Positions 1 through 5,010 of a DNA stretch of 64,000 bases are shown here, piece after piece. The notes beneath the pieces were generated by a model that did not search any database, was not told the origin of the DNA, and saw only the letters and a program-made list of their open reading frames with translations. Position 1 is the stretch's first letter; each line of letters opens with the position of its first letter. Origin of the DNA: Psychromonas antarctica (GTDB taxonomy: Bacteria; Pseudomonadota; Gammaproteobacteria; Enterobacterales; Psychromonadaceae); assembly GCF_022267535.1 (NCBI RefSeq), contig NZ_JAHNZV010000003.1:1-64000 (forward strand). Reading direction: 5' to 3'. The position numbers were made by a program, and so were the translations under genes.

Positions 1-6
1 AACAAT

Positions 7-81
7 TCCTCTTTAGCTCAGTTGGTAGAGCGATAGAGACACTGTTAATGTGATGTGTTCATTAACAGAAAAAAGAACAAT
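7..81 (+). pseudogene. Degenerate tRNA-Asn copy 1
   Basis: The first 25 bases match the intact tRNA-Asn, followed by the shared altered anticodon arm. The T-arm and 3' acceptor strand are not recoverable, although a T-loop-like GTTCA remains. A perfect inverted repeat, CTGTTAATG with CATTAACAG, overlaps the anticodon loop. Confidence 0.8.
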
Positions 82-156
82 TCCTCTTTAGCTCAGTTGG
101 TAGAGCGATAGAGACACTGTTAATGTGATGTGTTCATTAACAGAAAAAAGAACAAT
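82..156 (+). pseudogene. Degenerate tRNA-Asn copy 2
   Basis: This is essentially identical to copy 1 and follows it head to tail at 75 bases, which points to recent duplication. Confidence 0.8.
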
Positions 157-231
157 TCCTCTTTAGCTCAGTTGGTAGAGCGATAGAGACACTGTTAATG
201 TGTTATTCCATTAGTAGTAGAAAAGAACAAT
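157..231 (+). pseudogene. Degenerate tRNA-Asn copy 3
   Basis: It has the same 5' half as copies 1 and 2 but a different 3' segment (GTGTTATTCCATTAGTAG). It runs directly into the intact tRNA gene that starts at 232. Confidence 0.78.
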
Positions 232-307
232 TCCTCTTTAGCTCAGTTGGTAGAGCAACGGACTGTTAATCCGTGTGTCGCTGGTTCAAGTCCAGCAAGA
301 GGAGCCA
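232..307 (+). tRNA. tRNA-Asn (GUU)
   Basis: This is a complete 76-base cloverleaf. The acceptor strand TCCTCTT pairs with AAGAGGA and is followed by G and an encoded CCA. The D-stem is GCTC/GAGC, the anticodon stem ACGGA/TCCGT with loop CTGTTAA (anticodon GTT), and the T-stem GCTGG/CCAGC with loop TTCAAGT. It has no terminator of its own and is probably cut from a long precursor shared with its degenerate neighbours. Confidence 0.97.
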
Positions 308-371
308 CTTTTATTAAGTTTTGAGTATTTTGAAACTTAAGAGTGTGAAAACACTATAAACATTTGAATAT

Positions 372-460
372 TCCTCTTTAGCTCAGTTGGTAGAGCGATA
401 GAGACACTGTTAGTGTGATGTATCCATTAGCATGAAAATATTAAATTAGAAAAGAACAAT
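372..460 (+). pseudogene. Degenerate tRNA-Asn copy 4
   Basis: It has the shared altered anticodon arm, with GTTAGTG in place of GTTAATG. The unit is 89 bases to the next copy, longer than the 75-base form because of an AT-rich tail. A 64-base unrelated spacer separates it from the tRNA gene at 232-307. Confidence 0.75.
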
Positions 461-533
461 TCCTCTTTAGCTCAGTTGGTAGAGCGATAGAGACACTTTT
501 AATGTGATGTATTCATTAGCAGAAAAAGAATAT
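461..533 (+). pseudogene. Degenerate tRNA-Asn copy 5
   Basis: The unit is 73 bases. The D-arm is intact, but the anticodon loop has changed to CTTTTAA, so the Asn anticodon is lost here. Confidence 0.75.
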
Positions 534-622
534 TCTTCTTTAGCTCAGTTAATAGAGCGATAGAGACACTGTTAATGTGATGTATCCATTAGTATAAAAA
601 TGTTAGGTTAGAAAAGAACAAT
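534..622 (+). pseudogene. Degenerate tRNA-Asn copy 6
   Basis: This is the most decayed 5' end: TCTTCTT instead of TCCTCTT, and a D-loop changed to AGTTAATA. It is 89 bases long, with the same AT-rich tail type as copy 4. Confidence 0.72.
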
Positions 623-697
623 TCCTCTTTAGCTCTGTTGGTAGAGCGATAGAGACACTGTTAATGTGTTATTCCATTAGTAGTAAAAAAGAACAAT
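623..697 (+). pseudogene. Degenerate tRNA-Asn copy 7
   Basis: It has one change after the D-stem (GCTCTG for GCTCAG) and a 3' segment like that of copy 3. The length is 75 bases. Confidence 0.75.
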
Positions 698-772
698 TCC
701 TCTTTAGCTCAGTTGGTAGAGCGATAGAGACACTGTTAATGTGTTATTCCATTAGTAGTAAAAAAGAACAAT
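698..772 (+). pseudogene. Degenerate tRNA-Asn copy 8
   Basis: It is nearly identical to copy 7 and lies directly before the second intact tRNA. The copy 7-copy 8-tRNA trio mirrors the copy 3-tRNA arrangement upstream, which suggests block duplication. Confidence 0.75.
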
Positions 773-848
773 TCCTCTTTAGCTCAGTTGGTAGAGCAAC
801 GGACTGTTAATCCGTGTGTCGCTGGTTCAAGTCCAGCAAGAGGAGCCA
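773..848 (+). tRNA. tRNA-Asn (GUU), second intact copy
   Basis: The 76 bases are identical to the tRNA at 232-307, including the encoded CCA. It is the last unit of the array and lies five bases before a strong intrinsic terminator. Confidence 0.97.
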
Positions 849-852
849 CATT

Positions 853-886
853 AAAAACCCAGGTTTAATAACTTGGGTTTTTTTTT
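853..886 (+). terminator. Intrinsic terminator of the tRNA-Asn array
   Basis: A nine-base perfect stem (AAAAACCCA with TGGGTTTTT) is extended inward by four more pairs, has a short loop, and is followed by a run of T. It ends the tRNA transcript before moeA. Confidence 0.9.
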
Positions 887-1015
887 GCGCTTTTGAAAGA
901 GCCGAAAGAAGTTTTACTTCCACTGCTATTTTATCTTTGATCTCTTTGCGGTGCATTGAACTCTTGTTTAGAAAGCGTCACAATAAAATAACTTTATTAT
1001 CTGCAGGGGAAATAG

Positions 1016-2263
1016 ATGGGCTGTTGTGATGTGAAAGGATTAATGCCAATAGACTTAGCATTAACAAAAATGCAAGCAGAGCTAACTAATGTGTGTCAGT
1101 CAATAACATTGCCATTATCTCAGGCCTTGGGGGCTGTTTTGGCACAGGATATATTATCGCCGCTTAATGTTCCTCCTTTTAATAATTCGGCTATGGATGG
1201 TTATGCACTGTCTCATGCAGATTTGAACATATGCAGTTGTGAACAGCCGATTGTTTTGAAAGAGGTCGGTTGCGCCTTAGCGGGATCGCCTTATATTGGT
1301 GATATACCCAGAGGCTGTTGTGTACGTATTATGACTGGAGCCGTCTTGCCCACCGGCGTTGATACGGTGGTGATGCAGGAGCAAGTTTCAGTCAGCGAAG
1401 AACAGCTCACATTTACTCGTAGCCCTAAGTTTGGAGATAATGTGCGTTTGGTGGGTGAAGACGTCATGTTTGAGCAACGGGTGTTAAAGCAAGGACATCG
1501 ATTAACACCACGTGACATCCCTTTATTGGCTTCACTTGGGTTGGAAACGCTGCAAGTCTTTCGTAAACTGAAAGTAGCGGTACTTTCATCAGGAGATGAA
1601 CTTAAATCGCTTGGTGAGCCTCTGAATACAGGAGAGCTCTACGATAGCAATCGGTATAGCATGATTGCGCTGTTATCACGTTTGAATGTGGAGGTGATTG
1701 ATCTTGGCATTATCAAAGATGATAAAAGTGCGCTTAAAGAAGCCTTCATTAAAGCGGATCAACAAGCGGATGTGGTGATCAGTAGTGGTGGGGTTTCTGT
1801 AGGTGAAGCCGATTTTATTAAAGCGGTATTAGCCGAGCTAGGCACGATCAGTTTTTGGAAGCTTGCCATTAAACCCGGTAAACCCTTTGCATTTGGACAT
1901 TTACCAAATAGTGTGTTTTTTGGCCTGCCCGGTAATCCAGTTTCAGCGCTTGTCACTCTTTATCAGCTTGCGGTGCCTGCCATGGAAAAATTAAGTGGGA
2001 TGGCGGTTAAATCAGCTATGCGCTTTACTGCAATTATGCAGGACGATATCAGAAAAAAAGCGGGGCGAACGGATTTTCAACGAGGACTATATTTTGTTGA
2101 TAAAGCGGAGCAGATAGTTGTACAAAGTACAGGTAAACAAGGATCCGGAATTTTCAGTTCAATGTGTCAGTCCAACTGTTTTATTGTTCTTGAACAAGAT
2201 AGAGGCAATGTGATGGCTGGTGAACGTGTGACTATTGAACCTTACACGCATCTATTAGACTAA
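1016..2263 (+). CDS. moeA: Molybdopterin molybdenumtransferase MoeA
   Basis: MoeA inserts molybdate into adenylylated molybdopterin, the last step of molybdenum cofactor synthesis in the cytoplasm. At 415 residues it has the family's normal length and aligns with E. coli MoeA end to end. Visible signatures are NNSAMDGYA near residue 57, SSGGVSVGEADF near 255 in the MoCF-type domain, and GLPGNPVSA near 301. The start at 1016 has AGGGGA five bases upstream. A second ATG at 1043 lies closer to the usual family N-terminus and cannot be excluded. The gene precedes the moaA-E cluster but is separated from it by a riboswitch leader, so it is probably transcribed separately. Confidence 0.96.
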   Translation: MGCCDVKGLMPIDLALTKMQAELTNVCQSITLPLSQALGAVLAQDILSPLNVPPFNNSAMDGYALSHADLNICSCEQPIVLKEVGCALAGSPYIGDIPRGCCVRIMTGAVLPTGVDTVVMQEQVSVSEEQLTFTRSPKFGDNVRLVGEDVMFEQRVLKQGHRLTPRDIPLLASLGLETLQVFRKLKVAVLSSGDELKSLGEPLNTGELYDSNRYSMIALLSRLNVEVIDLGIIKDDKSALKEAFIKADQQADVVISSGGVSVGEADFIKAVLAELGTISFWKLAIKPGKPFAFGHLPNSVFFGLPGNPVSALVTLYQLAVPAMEKLSGMAVKSAMRFTAIMQDDIRKKAGRTDFQRGLYFVDKAEQIVVQSTGKQGSGIFSSMCQSNCFIVLEQDRGNVMAGERVTIEPYTHLLD

Positions 2264-2372
2264 TGACATGTTTTGGATCGTAGATAGTAATGATGACATA
2301 ACGTAATAAAATCGTCTTCTTAAAATAGCTCACTGTTTAACTTGGTTAATGATAATTTATAAATTAGATAAA

Positions 2373-2516
2373 TCACAATAGCGCCGAGCTTCGTGCCGCT
2401 AAGTTTATGCTCTCAACTATAAATAAGCGCACTTAGTCGCTTAACCAACCCATGTTGTTGGTTTAAGAAGGACAAAGCGAGAAATTACTTTGCCTCCCGT
2501 GTTTGGAAAGGAACTT
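2373..2516 (+). promoter_or_regulatory. Moco riboswitch (moaA leader)
   Basis: The leader ahead of moaA carries blocks typical of the Moco RNA motif: GCGCCGAGC, then CGTGCCGC, and near the 3' end GCCTCCCGT followed by GGAAAGGAA. The last block contains the moaA ribosome binding site. Ligand-bound folding could therefore hide the site and shut off moaA when cofactor is abundant, as known for E. coli moaA. The call rests on motif recognition; no covariance model was run. Confidence 0.8.
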
Positions 2517-2519
2517 AAG

Positions 2520-3503
2520 ATGCAACAGCAACTGGTTGATAACTTCAATAGGAAGTTTGAATACTTGCGTCTATCCATTACCGATGAGTGTAATTTTAAA
2601 TGTAATTATTGCCTTCCCGATGGATATCAGCGCACCCATAAAAAACAGTTTCTTAGTGAAAATGAAATAAAAAACTTAGTTTCAGCTTTTACTGAGCTTG
2701 GTACGAAAAAAGTGCGCATAACGGGCGGTGAGCCGAGTTTACGTAAAGATTTTGCTGCCATTATCTCCAGTATTTCGCGCATCCCGGGCATAGCCAAAGT
2801 AGCCACCACCACGAATGGATTTAGTCTTGAAAAAAATGCCCAAGATTGGTTTGATGCGGGTCTTAATGGTATTAATATCAGTGTCGATAGTCTCGATCCT
2901 AAAACTTTTCATTTAATTACCGGGAAAAATATTTTTCAAAAAGTGATGGATGGCGTAAGTGCAGCATCTGCGGCGGGTTTTCAACCCGTAAAAATCAATA
3001 GTGTGTTAATGAAAGGGCTTAATGATACGAATCTTGATCTCTTTATCCAGTGGATAAAGAAGCAACCGATACAACTACGTTTTATCGAGTTGATGCAGAC
3101 TGAAGATAACGGTAAATTTTTTAATAAATACCATATCTCCGGACAGGCGATTAAAGATAAATTGCTCAAGTCCGGTTGGATACAAAAAAAACCGCTCAGT
3201 CACGATGGTCCCGCTCAAGTGTTTACTCACAGAGACTATCAGGGTGAAGTGGGATTGATCATGCCCTACAGTAAAAATTTTTGTGATAGCTGTAATCGCC
3301 TACGCGTGTCCTCTTTGGGGCGATTACACTTGTGTTTGTTTGGTGAAGAGGGTATTGATTTACGCGACTTGTTAACCTCACCTGCTGATAAAGAAAAACT
3401 TAAAACCCGTATTGTAGCGGCACTTGCGGATAAAAAAATTAGCCACTATTTGGCCTTAGGGAAAATGGGTAGCACCCCACATTTAGCTTCGATTGGGGGG
3501 TAA
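2520..3503 (+). CDS. moaA: GTP 3',8-cyclase MoaA
   Basis: This radical SAM enzyme converts GTP to 3',8-cyclo-GTP, the first step of molybdopterin synthesis, together with MoaC. The N-terminal cluster motif CNFKCNYC places cysteines near residues 24, 28 and 31. The C-terminal cluster lies in NFCDSCNRLRVSSLG near residue 254 with a further Cys in LHLC. The protein ends in the conserved Gly-Gly tail and has 327 residues, the usual size. I chose ATG at 2520, with AAGGAA just upstream; an in-frame TTG at 2490 lies inside the riboswitch and is unlikely. Confidence 0.96.
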   Translation: MQQQLVDNFNRKFEYLRLSITDECNFKCNYCLPDGYQRTHKKQFLSENEIKNLVSAFTELGTKKVRITGGEPSLRKDFAAIISSISRIPGIAKVATTTNGFSLEKNAQDWFDAGLNGINISVDSLDPKTFHLITGKNIFQKVMDGVSAASAAGFQPVKINSVLMKGLNDTNLDLFIQWIKKQPIQLRFIELMQTEDNGKFFNKYHISGQAIKDKLLKSGWIQKKPLSHDGPAQVFTHRDYQGEVGLIMPYSKNFCDSCNRLRVSSLGRLHLCLFGEEGIDLRDLLTSPADKEKLKTRIVAALADKKISHYLALGKMGSTPHLASIGG

Positions 3504-3576
3504 TATGGACTGTCGGAAGTTGCTATGAATAAAAGACTATCTATTAGAGGCTTTGACTGCAAAAGATAAAAAATAG

Positions 3577-3732
3577 CGATCCATTTATCGCTTATTAAAA
3601 AGATGCAAAGCACAAGCGATCAGTTATCCTAAAGAACAGGATTTTCGTTTCCAAAATAGCAATACGCCTGAGCAGTGGGAATACTGTATCGCAACTTATA
3701 ATTGTTTAATACAGCATAAGGATAAAGTATGA
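3577..3732 (+). pseudogene. Possible coding remnant before moaB
   Basis: An open frame of 51 codons follows an in-frame TAG at 3574 and ends in a TGA that overlaps the moaB ATG. It has no usable start codon. Its composition is protein-like, with a stretch such as YPKEQDFRFQNSNTPEQW, and the frame continues upstream of the TAG for about a dozen codons. It could be the tail of a gene that decayed inside the moa operon. I do not recognise the family, and chance is possible. Confidence 0.3.
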
Positions 3733-4244
3733 GTTACCTTGCTAGTAAGATATTTAAAGTCACTAATATTGCCGTTTTAACGGTTTCAGATACTCGTAAT
3801 GAAGAAACTGATACATCAGGTCGTTATTTGGCTAGGGCTTTGACGGAAGCCGGCCATCAACTTGCGGATAAACAGATTGTGACTGATGATCCTTATAAAA
3901 TTCGTGCAATCGTTTCTACTTGGATAGCAGATCAAGAAATTGAAGCTATTTTGATCACCGGCGGCACCGGTTTTACCGAGCGCGATATCACGCCTGAAGC
4001 GGTGTCTGTTTTATTTGATAAACAGGTGGAAGGTTTTGGTGAGCTGTTCCGCCAACTTTCGTATTTGGAGATTGGTACCTCTACCATACAAAGTCGCGCC
4101 TTGGCTGGGTTTGCCAATAAAACTGTTATTTTTTGTATGCCGGGCTCAACGGGTGCTTGTAAAACTGCGTGGACAAAAATTATTGTTGAACAGTTAGATT
4201 CACAGCAGAAACCGTGTAATTTCATCCCTCATCTCAGCAAATAA
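3729..4244 (+). CDS. moaB: Molybdenum cofactor biosynthesis protein MoaB
   Basis: A MogA/MoaB-type MoCF domain protein of 171 residues, the E. coli MoaB length. The family binds molybdopterin and in some organisms adenylylates it; in E. coli, where MogA does this, MoaB's role is unclear. The signature [14 protein letters not shown] lies near residue 76 and a second conserved MPGSTGAC stretch near 138. AAGGA lies upstream of the ATG at 3729. No mogA is visible in the window, so this copy could carry the adenylylation step; that is inference. Confidence 0.93.
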
Positions 4245-4254
4245 AAGGATTTTC

Positions 4255-4734
4255 ATGAGCGAGCAATTTACCCATCTTAATCAAGATGGCCAAGCTAATA
4301 TGGTCGATGTCACAGATAAAGTTGTTACCGAGCGACAGGCTGTTGCCCAAGCTTATATTTTGATGTCGGCAGAAACACTTGAATTAATCGTCAGCGGGCA
4401 ACATGATAAAGGCGATGTGTTTGCTAGCGCACGTATTGCCGGCATTATGGCTGCAAAAAAAACCGCCGATCTGATCCCTTTATGTCACCCTTTGGCTTTA
4501 ACCAAGGTGCAGGTGGAGATCACTGCTGAGCCGGAATTTAATCGTGTGTGTATCATCAGTTTATGTAAATTGTCAGGAAAAACCGGTGTGGAGATGGAGG
4601 CTTTAACGGCAGCTTCTGTGGCAGCATTAACCATCTATGATATGTGTAAAGCGGTTCAGAAAGATATGATCATCTCAGAGGTGAAACTGCTGGAAAAAAC
4701 AGGTGGTAAATCAGGGCTGTTTAAGGCCGATTGA
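4255..4734 (+). CDS. moaC: Cyclic pyranopterin monophosphate synthase MoaC
   Basis: MoaC turns 3',8-cyclo-GTP into cyclic pyranopterin monophosphate. The 159 residues match the family throughout: MVDVTDK near the N-terminus, [10 protein letters not shown] with its active-site histidine, and [14 protein letters not shown]. Ten bases separate it from moaB and AAGGA precedes the ATG, consistent with one moaABCDE transcript. Confidence 0.96.
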
Positions 4735-4761
4735 AGGTGTTTGTTAAACTAGGATAATAAG

Positions 4762-5010
4762 ATGATCAAAGTACTTTTTTTTGCAAGCTTGCGTGATCAG
4801 CTAGGCATTAGTGAATTACAACTACCTTGTGAAGCGAACCCCGATACCAATAGTTTATTAGATAATTTAAAAGCACAAGATCAACACTGGTCGAAGGCGC
4901 TTAAACAGAAGCAGTTGATGGTGGCGGTCAATCAAACTATAGCGACGAGTAATTGTCTTTTGCAGGATGGTGATGAAGTCGCCTTTTTCCCACCCGTTAC
5001 CGGAGGCTGA
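4762..5010 (+). CDS. moaD: Molybdopterin synthase sulfur carrier subunit MoaD
   Basis: A ubiquitin-fold protein of 82 residues ending in the required PPVTGG tail. MoeB activates the terminal glycine, which carries the thiocarboxylate sulfur delivered to MoaE. It ends two bases before the moaE start codon, and the CGGAGG that encodes part of its tail also serves as the moaE ribosome binding site. Confidence 0.95.
   Translation: MIKVLFFASLRDQLGISELQLPCEANPDTNSLLDNLKAQDQHWSKALKQKQLMVAVNQTIATSNCLLQDGDEVAFFPPVTGG

Follow-up and report, generated by a model that had tools for sequence, protein, structure and literature searches.

The closest described counterpart of the locus analyzed here is the tyrT (tyrTV)/RttR system of E. 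coli, a polycistronic tRNA operon whose spacers carry repeats copied from its own tRNA. These repeats consist of the last 19 nt of the tRNA (positions 67-85, the 3' end with CCA). When we checked E. coli K-12, one 19-nt copy lay between tyrT and tyrV and a second one 3' of tyrV, so that the comparison drawn in a preliminary description of our locus, that the tyrT repeats derive from the 3' end, was correct.

Partial tRNA genes that are miscalled as tRNAs have been described in prokaryotes, one example being a fragment in a CRISPR array (accessible part of PMC9897764); the name Psychromonas has no occurrence in the main text of that article. For the P. ingrahamii genome, 86 tRNA genes were reported, and the accessible part of the report makes no mention of degenerate copies (PMC2405808). 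The open-access literature contained no description of units such as those reported below, which is weak evidence of novelty since most subscription papers lay outside the search.

Tandem tRNA genes are common, and what stops neighbors in the same transcript from folding with one another is rarely asked. Here, we describe a tRNA-Asn operon at the start of a 64,000-nt stretch of DNA (the window) from the cold-loving genus Psychromonas; the operon contains many altered tRNA copies. We tentatively propose that the array consists of amplified tRNA copies kept structurally inert, as self-masking spacers, possibly with a role in processing.

Anatomy of the array

Positions 1-886 of the window are part of one tRNA-Asn operon, and the array is already underway at the first base (Table 1). 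As the preliminary description stated, two intact tRNA-Asn(GUU) genes, both called by ARAGORN, stand among eight degenerate copies. These units are ~75 nt in size and follow one another at intervals of 73-89 nt within runs, the longest of which in the window has five units. Since Tandem Repeats Finder scores the array at 454 (positions 1-256) and 627 (positions 366-764), it is far beyond chance.

Each unit begins with a copy of tRNA positions 1-25, continues with a changed linker and then carries a copy of the anticodon loop, with homology to tRNA-Asn essentially confined to positions 1-25. All 25 nt are identical in six of the eight units; the match is weaker in the units at 534 and 623. The GUU anticodon is retained in seven of the eight, again as first described, the exception being the unit at 461, which reads CTTTTAA. 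The loop at 372 reads CTGTTAG, and the anticodon copy of unit 6 is unpaired in the lowest-energy fold.

Neither ARAGORN nor the Rfam tRNA model, at E values up to 1, calls any unit a tRNA. With a match that stops at position 25 and a different fold, the units lack the full cloverleaf, the T-arm and the 3' acceptor strand of a functional tRNA. Only the two intact tRNAs pass the Rfam gathering score within the array, and the sub-threshold matches listed lie off the units. We rejected membership in a known RNA family, as an Rfam search with E values of up to 1 returned nothing over the Asn units of either the window or locus L054; RtT likewise had no match in window positions 1-5000 at this limit. 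A coding repeat was also rejected. The longest forward frame ending within the array has 48 codons for amino acids and spans two units into a tRNA; because, in addition, unit spacing varies (71-89 nt), there is no conserved frame.

The terminator-like hairpin that closes the array is absent from the output of a simple pattern scan. An ORF at 1016-2263 comes after the tRNA operon, and a molybdenum cofactor riboswitch at 2370-2529 (RF01055, 63.9 bits) overlaps the start of an ORF at 2490-3503. The two ORFs are putative moaA and moeA genes.

Table 1. Features of the tRNA-Asn array in the window and related copies at other loci. R1, covariance model of the Asn unit
Feature	Position or locus	Strand	Evidence and remarks
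Unit 1, degenerate tRNA-Asn	7..81	+	R1 86.3 bits; 5' strand, D-arm, changed linker, anticodon hairpin, A/T-rich tail
Unit 2, degenerate, same sequence as unit 1	82..156	+	Hairpin CUGUUAAUG/CAUUAACAG; R1 86.3 bits; fold z -2.72
Unit 3, degenerate, differing 3' arm CAUUAGUAG with two G-U pairs	157..231	+	R1 86.4 bits; fold z -1.85
First intact tRNA-Asn(GUU)	232..307	+	ARAGORN; Rfam RF00005 72.1 bits
Spacer 3' of first tRNA, two predicted hairpins	308..371	+	Fold z -2.28
Unit 4, degenerate, longer tail	372..460 (model match 372-447)	+	R1 73.4 bits; fold z -1.97
Unit 5, degenerate, anticodon copy UUU	461..533	+	R1 72.8 bits
Unit 6, degenerate, most diverged of the window	534..622 (model match 534-609)	+	R1 64.9 bits
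Unit 7, degenerate	623..697	+	R1 86.1 bits
Unit 8, degenerate	698..772	+	R1 88.6 bits
Intact tRNA-Asn(GUU), last gene of the array	773..848	+	ARAGORN; Rfam
Terminator-like hairpin and T run	853..886	+	Fold z -4.52, -15.6 kcal/mol
Own-tRNA copies of Gly, Gln, Asp and Pro	Window genome L043, L045, L040, L042, L050; G005 L080, L087, L088		
Altered tRNA-Asn (oriented coordinates)	L014 2029-2463; L012 near 1150-1240, 2030-2118; L013 near 1746-1824; L015 1747-1835; L023 2020-2655		

Promoter, operon extent and layout

Contig C223, one of 300 in a draft genome, has its left end at the start of the window, which cuts the array at base 1. Its left part forms the right end of contig C34 (L009), where three whole units and one cut-off unit are found; the array thus continues leftward, and does not begin at base 1 as had been described. 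Upstream of the C34 units is a tRNA-type promoter, TTGACA-17-TATACT, that agrees with the consensus at 11 of 12 positions. Because shuffled sequence is expected to yield 1.7 promoter sites per region, support for the promoter comes from the sequence match and from its recurrence in relatives, not from the count. The pattern lies upstream in 18 of 22 loci, and three of the other four start inside the array. At the unit-free G004 locus there is no promoter pattern, though the upstream sequence reaches far enough.

Provided that the assembly is correct, the two tRNAs of the visible operon are accompanied by at least 12 units, including the one that is cut off. Since the contig breaks inside the array, the copy number in this genome is a lower bound. 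For the kind of array, an assembly artefact is unlikely because the one-contig genome G005 and the two-contig genome G019 carry it as well.

With U denoting a unit and N an intact tRNA-Asn, operon layouts include UNUN, UNNN, UNUNUNUN, NUUNUNUUN and UUNUNUNUUN, and the window genome has UUUU(gap)UUUNUUUUUN. A unit is the first element of the operon in 14 of the 16 unit-bearing genomes. Runs of units before the terminator are followed by an intact tRNA-Asn, cuts at contig ends such as that of C34 excepted; this statement leaves out G014's final U and the final two U of G018, which lie 3' of the terminator, as well as the third U of G020, in reality a tRNA start at a contig end, and partial matches dropped by the script. 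Promoter, terminator-like hairpin and layout are consistent with the earlier suggestion of units serving as spacers within a long precursor, and the whole operon is probably one transcript.

Units lie directly 5' of a tRNA or of another unit and share a similar, A/U-rich tail. RNase E prefers A/U-rich single strands. Two stable hairpins and the single-stranded tail might together set an RNase E-type cut and give RNase P a defined leader, which would make the unit a processing element. The position of the units, the likeness of their tails and the retention of the hairpins all fit such a role. However, the element would be dispensable, as seven of 23 genus genomes have no unit match and unit-free arrays of six and four intact tRNA-Asn genes exist in G010 and G022, respectively, and the tRNA origin of the spacer would be left unexplained. 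We consider it rather improbable that processing is what the units are for; in self-masking spacers, too, the tail may be a precursor cut site.

In several Psychromonas genomes, we also observed tRNA-Asn genes altered by an insertion at the anticodon loop, mostly downstream of the terminator and once, in L012, inside the operon (Table 1). CTGTCCTCTTTTGAAGGTATAGCG replaces CTGTTAATCCG in L012 and L014, and other variants occur elsewhere. L014 has three altered genes in tandem with terminator-like hairpins, and ARAGORN calls some of the altered genes tRNA-Gly(UCC) or unknown. A tRNA-Val in another family (L157) is similarly altered, with CCTCTTT, and lies 3' of a terminator-like hairpin.

Structure and covariation of the units

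The linker after the D-arm is non-tRNA sequence, typically GAUAGAGACAC, or AGUUGAGGCAC in G005 and most G021 units. Its AGAG or GAGG pairs with CUCU or CCUC of the 5' acceptor strand, forming a short 4-bp stem that closes the D-arm. Downstream, CACUGUUAAU pairs with the 3' segment and buries the anticodon copy in a hairpin. The preliminary description had recognized this hairpin, which is one of two structures, and had missed the stem between acceptor strand and linker. Of the 54 distinct Asn units, 41 have a fully paired anticodon copy in the lowest-energy fold and 13 have one that is incompletely paired; among the 41, one pairs its copy upstream and not in the hairpin, and one has GAU there. 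The hairpin region has a mean shuffle z of -2.0. Across the 54 distinct rows, the pair after UUAAU is U-A in 16, G-C in nine, U-G in seven and C-G in one, with 20 unpaired and one gap.

Covariation of the stem, proposed earlier as a check, was examined in a model-fitted alignment (A3) of 57 units, 54 of them distinct, against 500 shuffles. Two-sided changes occupy 52 cells, compared to 19.5 +/- 3.6 in shuffles, and the covariation score is 0.190, compared to 0.107 +/- 0.008; no shuffle of the 500 reaches either value, in statistics for which units from one genome are non-independent. Slid versions of the pairing score at most 0.096, with 11 and 12 pairs showing two-sided change versus 11 and up to 43 cells versus 52. 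Further pair types in A3 show no excess over shuffles (75/500). On a MAFFT alignment that is not structure-fitted, and in which the G005 and G021 units are out of register, covariation is weak: the score is reached in 19 of 500 shuffles, seven pairs have two-sided change versus 6.7, and RNAalifold predicts two 5' stems and no hairpin. We also used an alignment-independent swap test with 53 units, one motif-less unit being skipped. The 5' and 3' halves of a genome's own hairpins pair better than between-genome mixes in 15 of 16 genomes (permutation P 0.001). Covariation of the hairpin is thus moderately supported by the fitted alignment and the swap test, and more weakly by the unfitted alignment. 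A candidate for exact compensation in the linker stem of G002 was dropped, as the fold of G002 uses another register.

Units are more alike within genomes (mean identity 0.84) than between them (0.70), and for 40 of 53 units the nearest neighbor is from the same genome. Together with the spread of the unit family over 16 of 23 genomes, this supports the earlier view that one variant was amplified, as opposed to random decay. Between genomes, the head (tRNA positions 1-26) is 86-90% identical, and the hairpin loop and 3' arm have a mean identity of 47%.

A neutral tandem repeat would arise if unequal crossing-over spread a dead tRNA fragment together with its neighbor, the hairpin being an inconsequential by-product. 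Partial homogenization within genomes and a copy order that differs between species would follow naturally, and the weak covariation on the unfitted alignment points the same way, as do the other-shaped own-tRNA copies described below, which occupy Asp, Gly, Gln, Pro and Lys spacers and three of the four other families sampled. Such a repeat would not, however, predict the swap test result, the two-sided changes or the recurrence of the anticodon-burying design in tRNA-Lys operons, and we regard it as unlikely.

The uniform head bears on a further explanation, in which processed units are stable small RNAs that act in trans as sponges, tRNA mimics or antisense RNAs. In E. coli, leuZ provides a comparable case of a spacer-derived sponge. 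The two compact stems and the tRNA-type promoter would suit such RNAs. Nevertheless, recombination with the intact tRNA would likewise keep the head uniform, and the Asn units of the window and L054 have no counterpart in Rfam, making a trans-acting role very unlikely in our judgment.

Distribution across genomes

We built R1 from 44 units and scanned 295 genomes of the order using Infernal's stricter filters and a cut-off of 57 bits. Matches at or above the cut-off occur in 16 of 23 Psychromonas genomes and in none of the 272 other genomes. The 57 matches in these 16 genomes include the eight units of the window, which combine the linker stem, the D-arm and the anticodon-burying hairpin. The Asn unit is therefore limited to the genus Psychromonas. 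Weak matches (36.8-41.7 bits) were found in three genomes outside the genus, G024, G046 and G132, and those of G024 start at intact tRNA-Asn genes. Among the genus genomes with no match, G015 and G023 have a single tRNA-Asn at a contig end, where the locus may be truncated; the comparison of tRNA-Asn loci in these genomes was made without G016 and G017.

A search of named genome contigs with an exact linker pattern, one that misses the G005 form, returned 15 stretches, 14 titled Psychromonas and one from an uncultured Enterobacterales. All eight of the 15 that we examined adjoin tRNA-Asn or tRNA-Lys genes. A mobile or phage element is less likely, since this same pattern, which misses the G005 form, yielded no viral contigs and no dispersed unit, but a few short matches (31-43 nt) to the tRNA-like head are present on other contigs (G008:C25, G015:C59, G023:C19 and G066:C5).

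tRNA-Lys units and other own-tRNA copies

Similar units copied from tRNA-Lys are found in tRNA-Lys operons of several other Psychromonas genomes and of one Enterobacterales MAG. They consist of a D-arm, a linker such as UAUUGAUACAC and then CACUUUUAAUUUAAAAGUG, with a hairpin that buries UUU. Eight loci gave 35 candidates, one of which, near 2691 in L071, is a genuine tRNA-Lys interrupted by Ns. UUU is fully paired in 27 of the 31 distinct candidates that have CUUUUA, a number that includes the N-cut tRNA-Lys. The tRNA-Lys copies in the window genome (L048 and L049) and in G005 (L082) have a different shape, in which the D-arm is broken. On the minus strand of L074, three weak matches to YrlA, a Y RNA-like family (22.4-24.6 bits; gathering 69), at 2192-2274, 2435-2564 and 2615-2744, lie over Lys units and the adjacent tRNA and are probably driven by the tRNA part.

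That Asn and Lys units share a D-arm/anticodon-burying hairpin device could mean that they function as decoys or sensors. The hairpin would be opened by cold, by an RNA-binding protein or by a cleaving enzyme, which would expose the anticodon, and the opened unit would compete with or report on the real tRNA. The operon would then have built-in control of tRNA-Asn and tRNA-Lys supply. We give this idea very little credence.

Own-tRNA copies were also sought in selected tRNA clusters by local alignment against shuffled spacers, leaving out spacers of <20 or >700 nt or with N. Copies of a tRNA from the same cluster are present in 6 of 21 such spacers in the window genome, 6 of 42 in G005, 0 of 24 in G010 and 1 of 18 in G022; the values for G085, G024, G028 and G032 are 0 of 43, 1 of 31, 4 of 10 and 1 of 10, respectively. 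With copies in three of the four other families sampled, we rejected the idea that degenerate own-tRNA copies in general are specific to the genus. Copies thus arise in several families; what is special here is the structured and amplified Asn and Lys units. The other partial own-cluster copies (Lys in G028 of family f6, Val in G032 of family f10, Asn in G024 of family f2, and Asp, Gly, Gln and Pro in Psychromonas; Table 1) are broken differently, and the Asn model stays below 57 bits in all non-genus genomes.

Anticodon burial is not a property of all operons. The Asp copies retain an anticodon arm but lack the D and T arms, those of Gly retain the 3' half, and those of Pro and Gln carry insertions close to the anticodon. 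In the tRNA-Lys operon L154 of G028, degenerate tRNA-Lys copies with a recurrent shape occupy four spacers between the genes and seem to reflect a separate amplification in another family; ARAGORN calls one altered copy tRNA-Asp(ATC). In L151 of G024, the 160-nt spacer between the third and fourth tRNA-Asn carries a ~23-nt, fresh-looking 5' fragment of tRNA-Asn that ends in ATAAT immediately 5' of an intact tRNA-Asn. Possibly, this fragment represents a first step in the birth of a unit, through slippage between ATAAT repeats.

Calculated folding of the downstream tRNA

We envision that a 5' fragment of the tRNA-Asn gene was tandemly duplicated and then altered within one operon, and that the altered fragment was amplified as a ~75-77 nt unit that is immediately followed by an intact tRNA or a further unit. 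When one transcript carries an extra tRNA 5' half, this copy is in principle harmful, since it can base-pair with the 3' half of the genuine tRNA. Surviving units would be those that lock themselves. In the first lock, AGAG of the changed linker would capture the 5' acceptor strand, CUCU, around the D-arm; in the second, the 3' segment would pair with and hide the anticodon-loop copy. The outcome would be an inert, structured, A/U-tailed spacer that separates the tRNAs.

For 31 unit-tRNA pairs from 14 genomes, we calculated the acceptor-stem probability of the next tRNA at 37°C. With natural units, the mean is 0.60. It falls to 0.31 when the linker is shuffled (natural higher in 14 of 14 genomes), to 0.32 when the 3' arm is shuffled (13 of 14), to 0.26 when both are shuffled and to 0.03 when the 5' half of a real tRNA replaces that of the unit. 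In calculation, the duplicate is thus harmful and the two locks undo most of the harm; this protection may be the target of selection. Shuffling the 5' strand and D-arm alone gives 0.67, and shuffling the whole unit gives 0.735. Since the whole-unit shuffle exceeds the natural unit, the most that can be said for the units is that they do less harm, not that they help.

Some Asn units are poor protectors, with values of 0.04 in G001, 0.05 and 0.06 in G006, 0.12 in G003, and 0.12 and 0.14 in G014. The margin narrows at 8°C, which is closer to the growth temperature (0.39 versus 0.20; higher in 17/31). In the equilibrium fold of the 890-nt array at 37°C, the acceptor stem of the second tRNA has a probability of 0.02 and several units' anticodon copies pair beyond their own unit; such long equilibrium folds ignore co-transcriptional folding.

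In tRNA-Lys operons, protection comes about by another route. Among the Lys units directly 5' of tRNA-Lys, 13 of 17 deviate from the acceptor strand, one of them at just one base, and inserting the exact strand brings the calculated acceptor stem to 0.04 or less. The other four keep the strand and are predicted to interfere fully, the next tRNA having a calculated acceptor-stem probability of 0.00. As shuffling the 3' arm and tail of Lys units makes no change (0.72 to 0.74), the Lys hairpin is unexplained by acceptor protection. The Lys results, the poorly protecting Asn units, the smaller margin at 8°C and the failure of the second tRNA to fold in the full-length array are counter-evidence that keeps our confidence in self-masking spacers somewhat short of even.

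Discussion

If the locks are selected, these operons would provide evidence from nature that duplicated tRNAs can persist only after masking of their tRNA parts, which would be a testable rule for the evolution of tRNA operons. Selection of the locks would also account for some of the seeming junk in tRNA spacers, which tRNA-finding programs leave unreported.

How do the units compare with known systems? The miscalled fragments of PMC9897764 resemble them in being non-functional tRNA fragments and differ in origin, as far as the accessible part of that article goes. Like the tyrT repeats, the Asn units are own-tRNA copies in the spacers of a polycistronic operon. Unlike those repeats, they are not copies of the 3' end; each takes up the first 25 nt of the tRNA and the anticodon loop. 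In a further difference from tyrT, the anticodon is buried within the Psychromonas unit, and runs of as many as five units occur in the window. What is new relative to tyrT is that the Psychromonas units copy the opposite end of the tRNA and add a masking structure.
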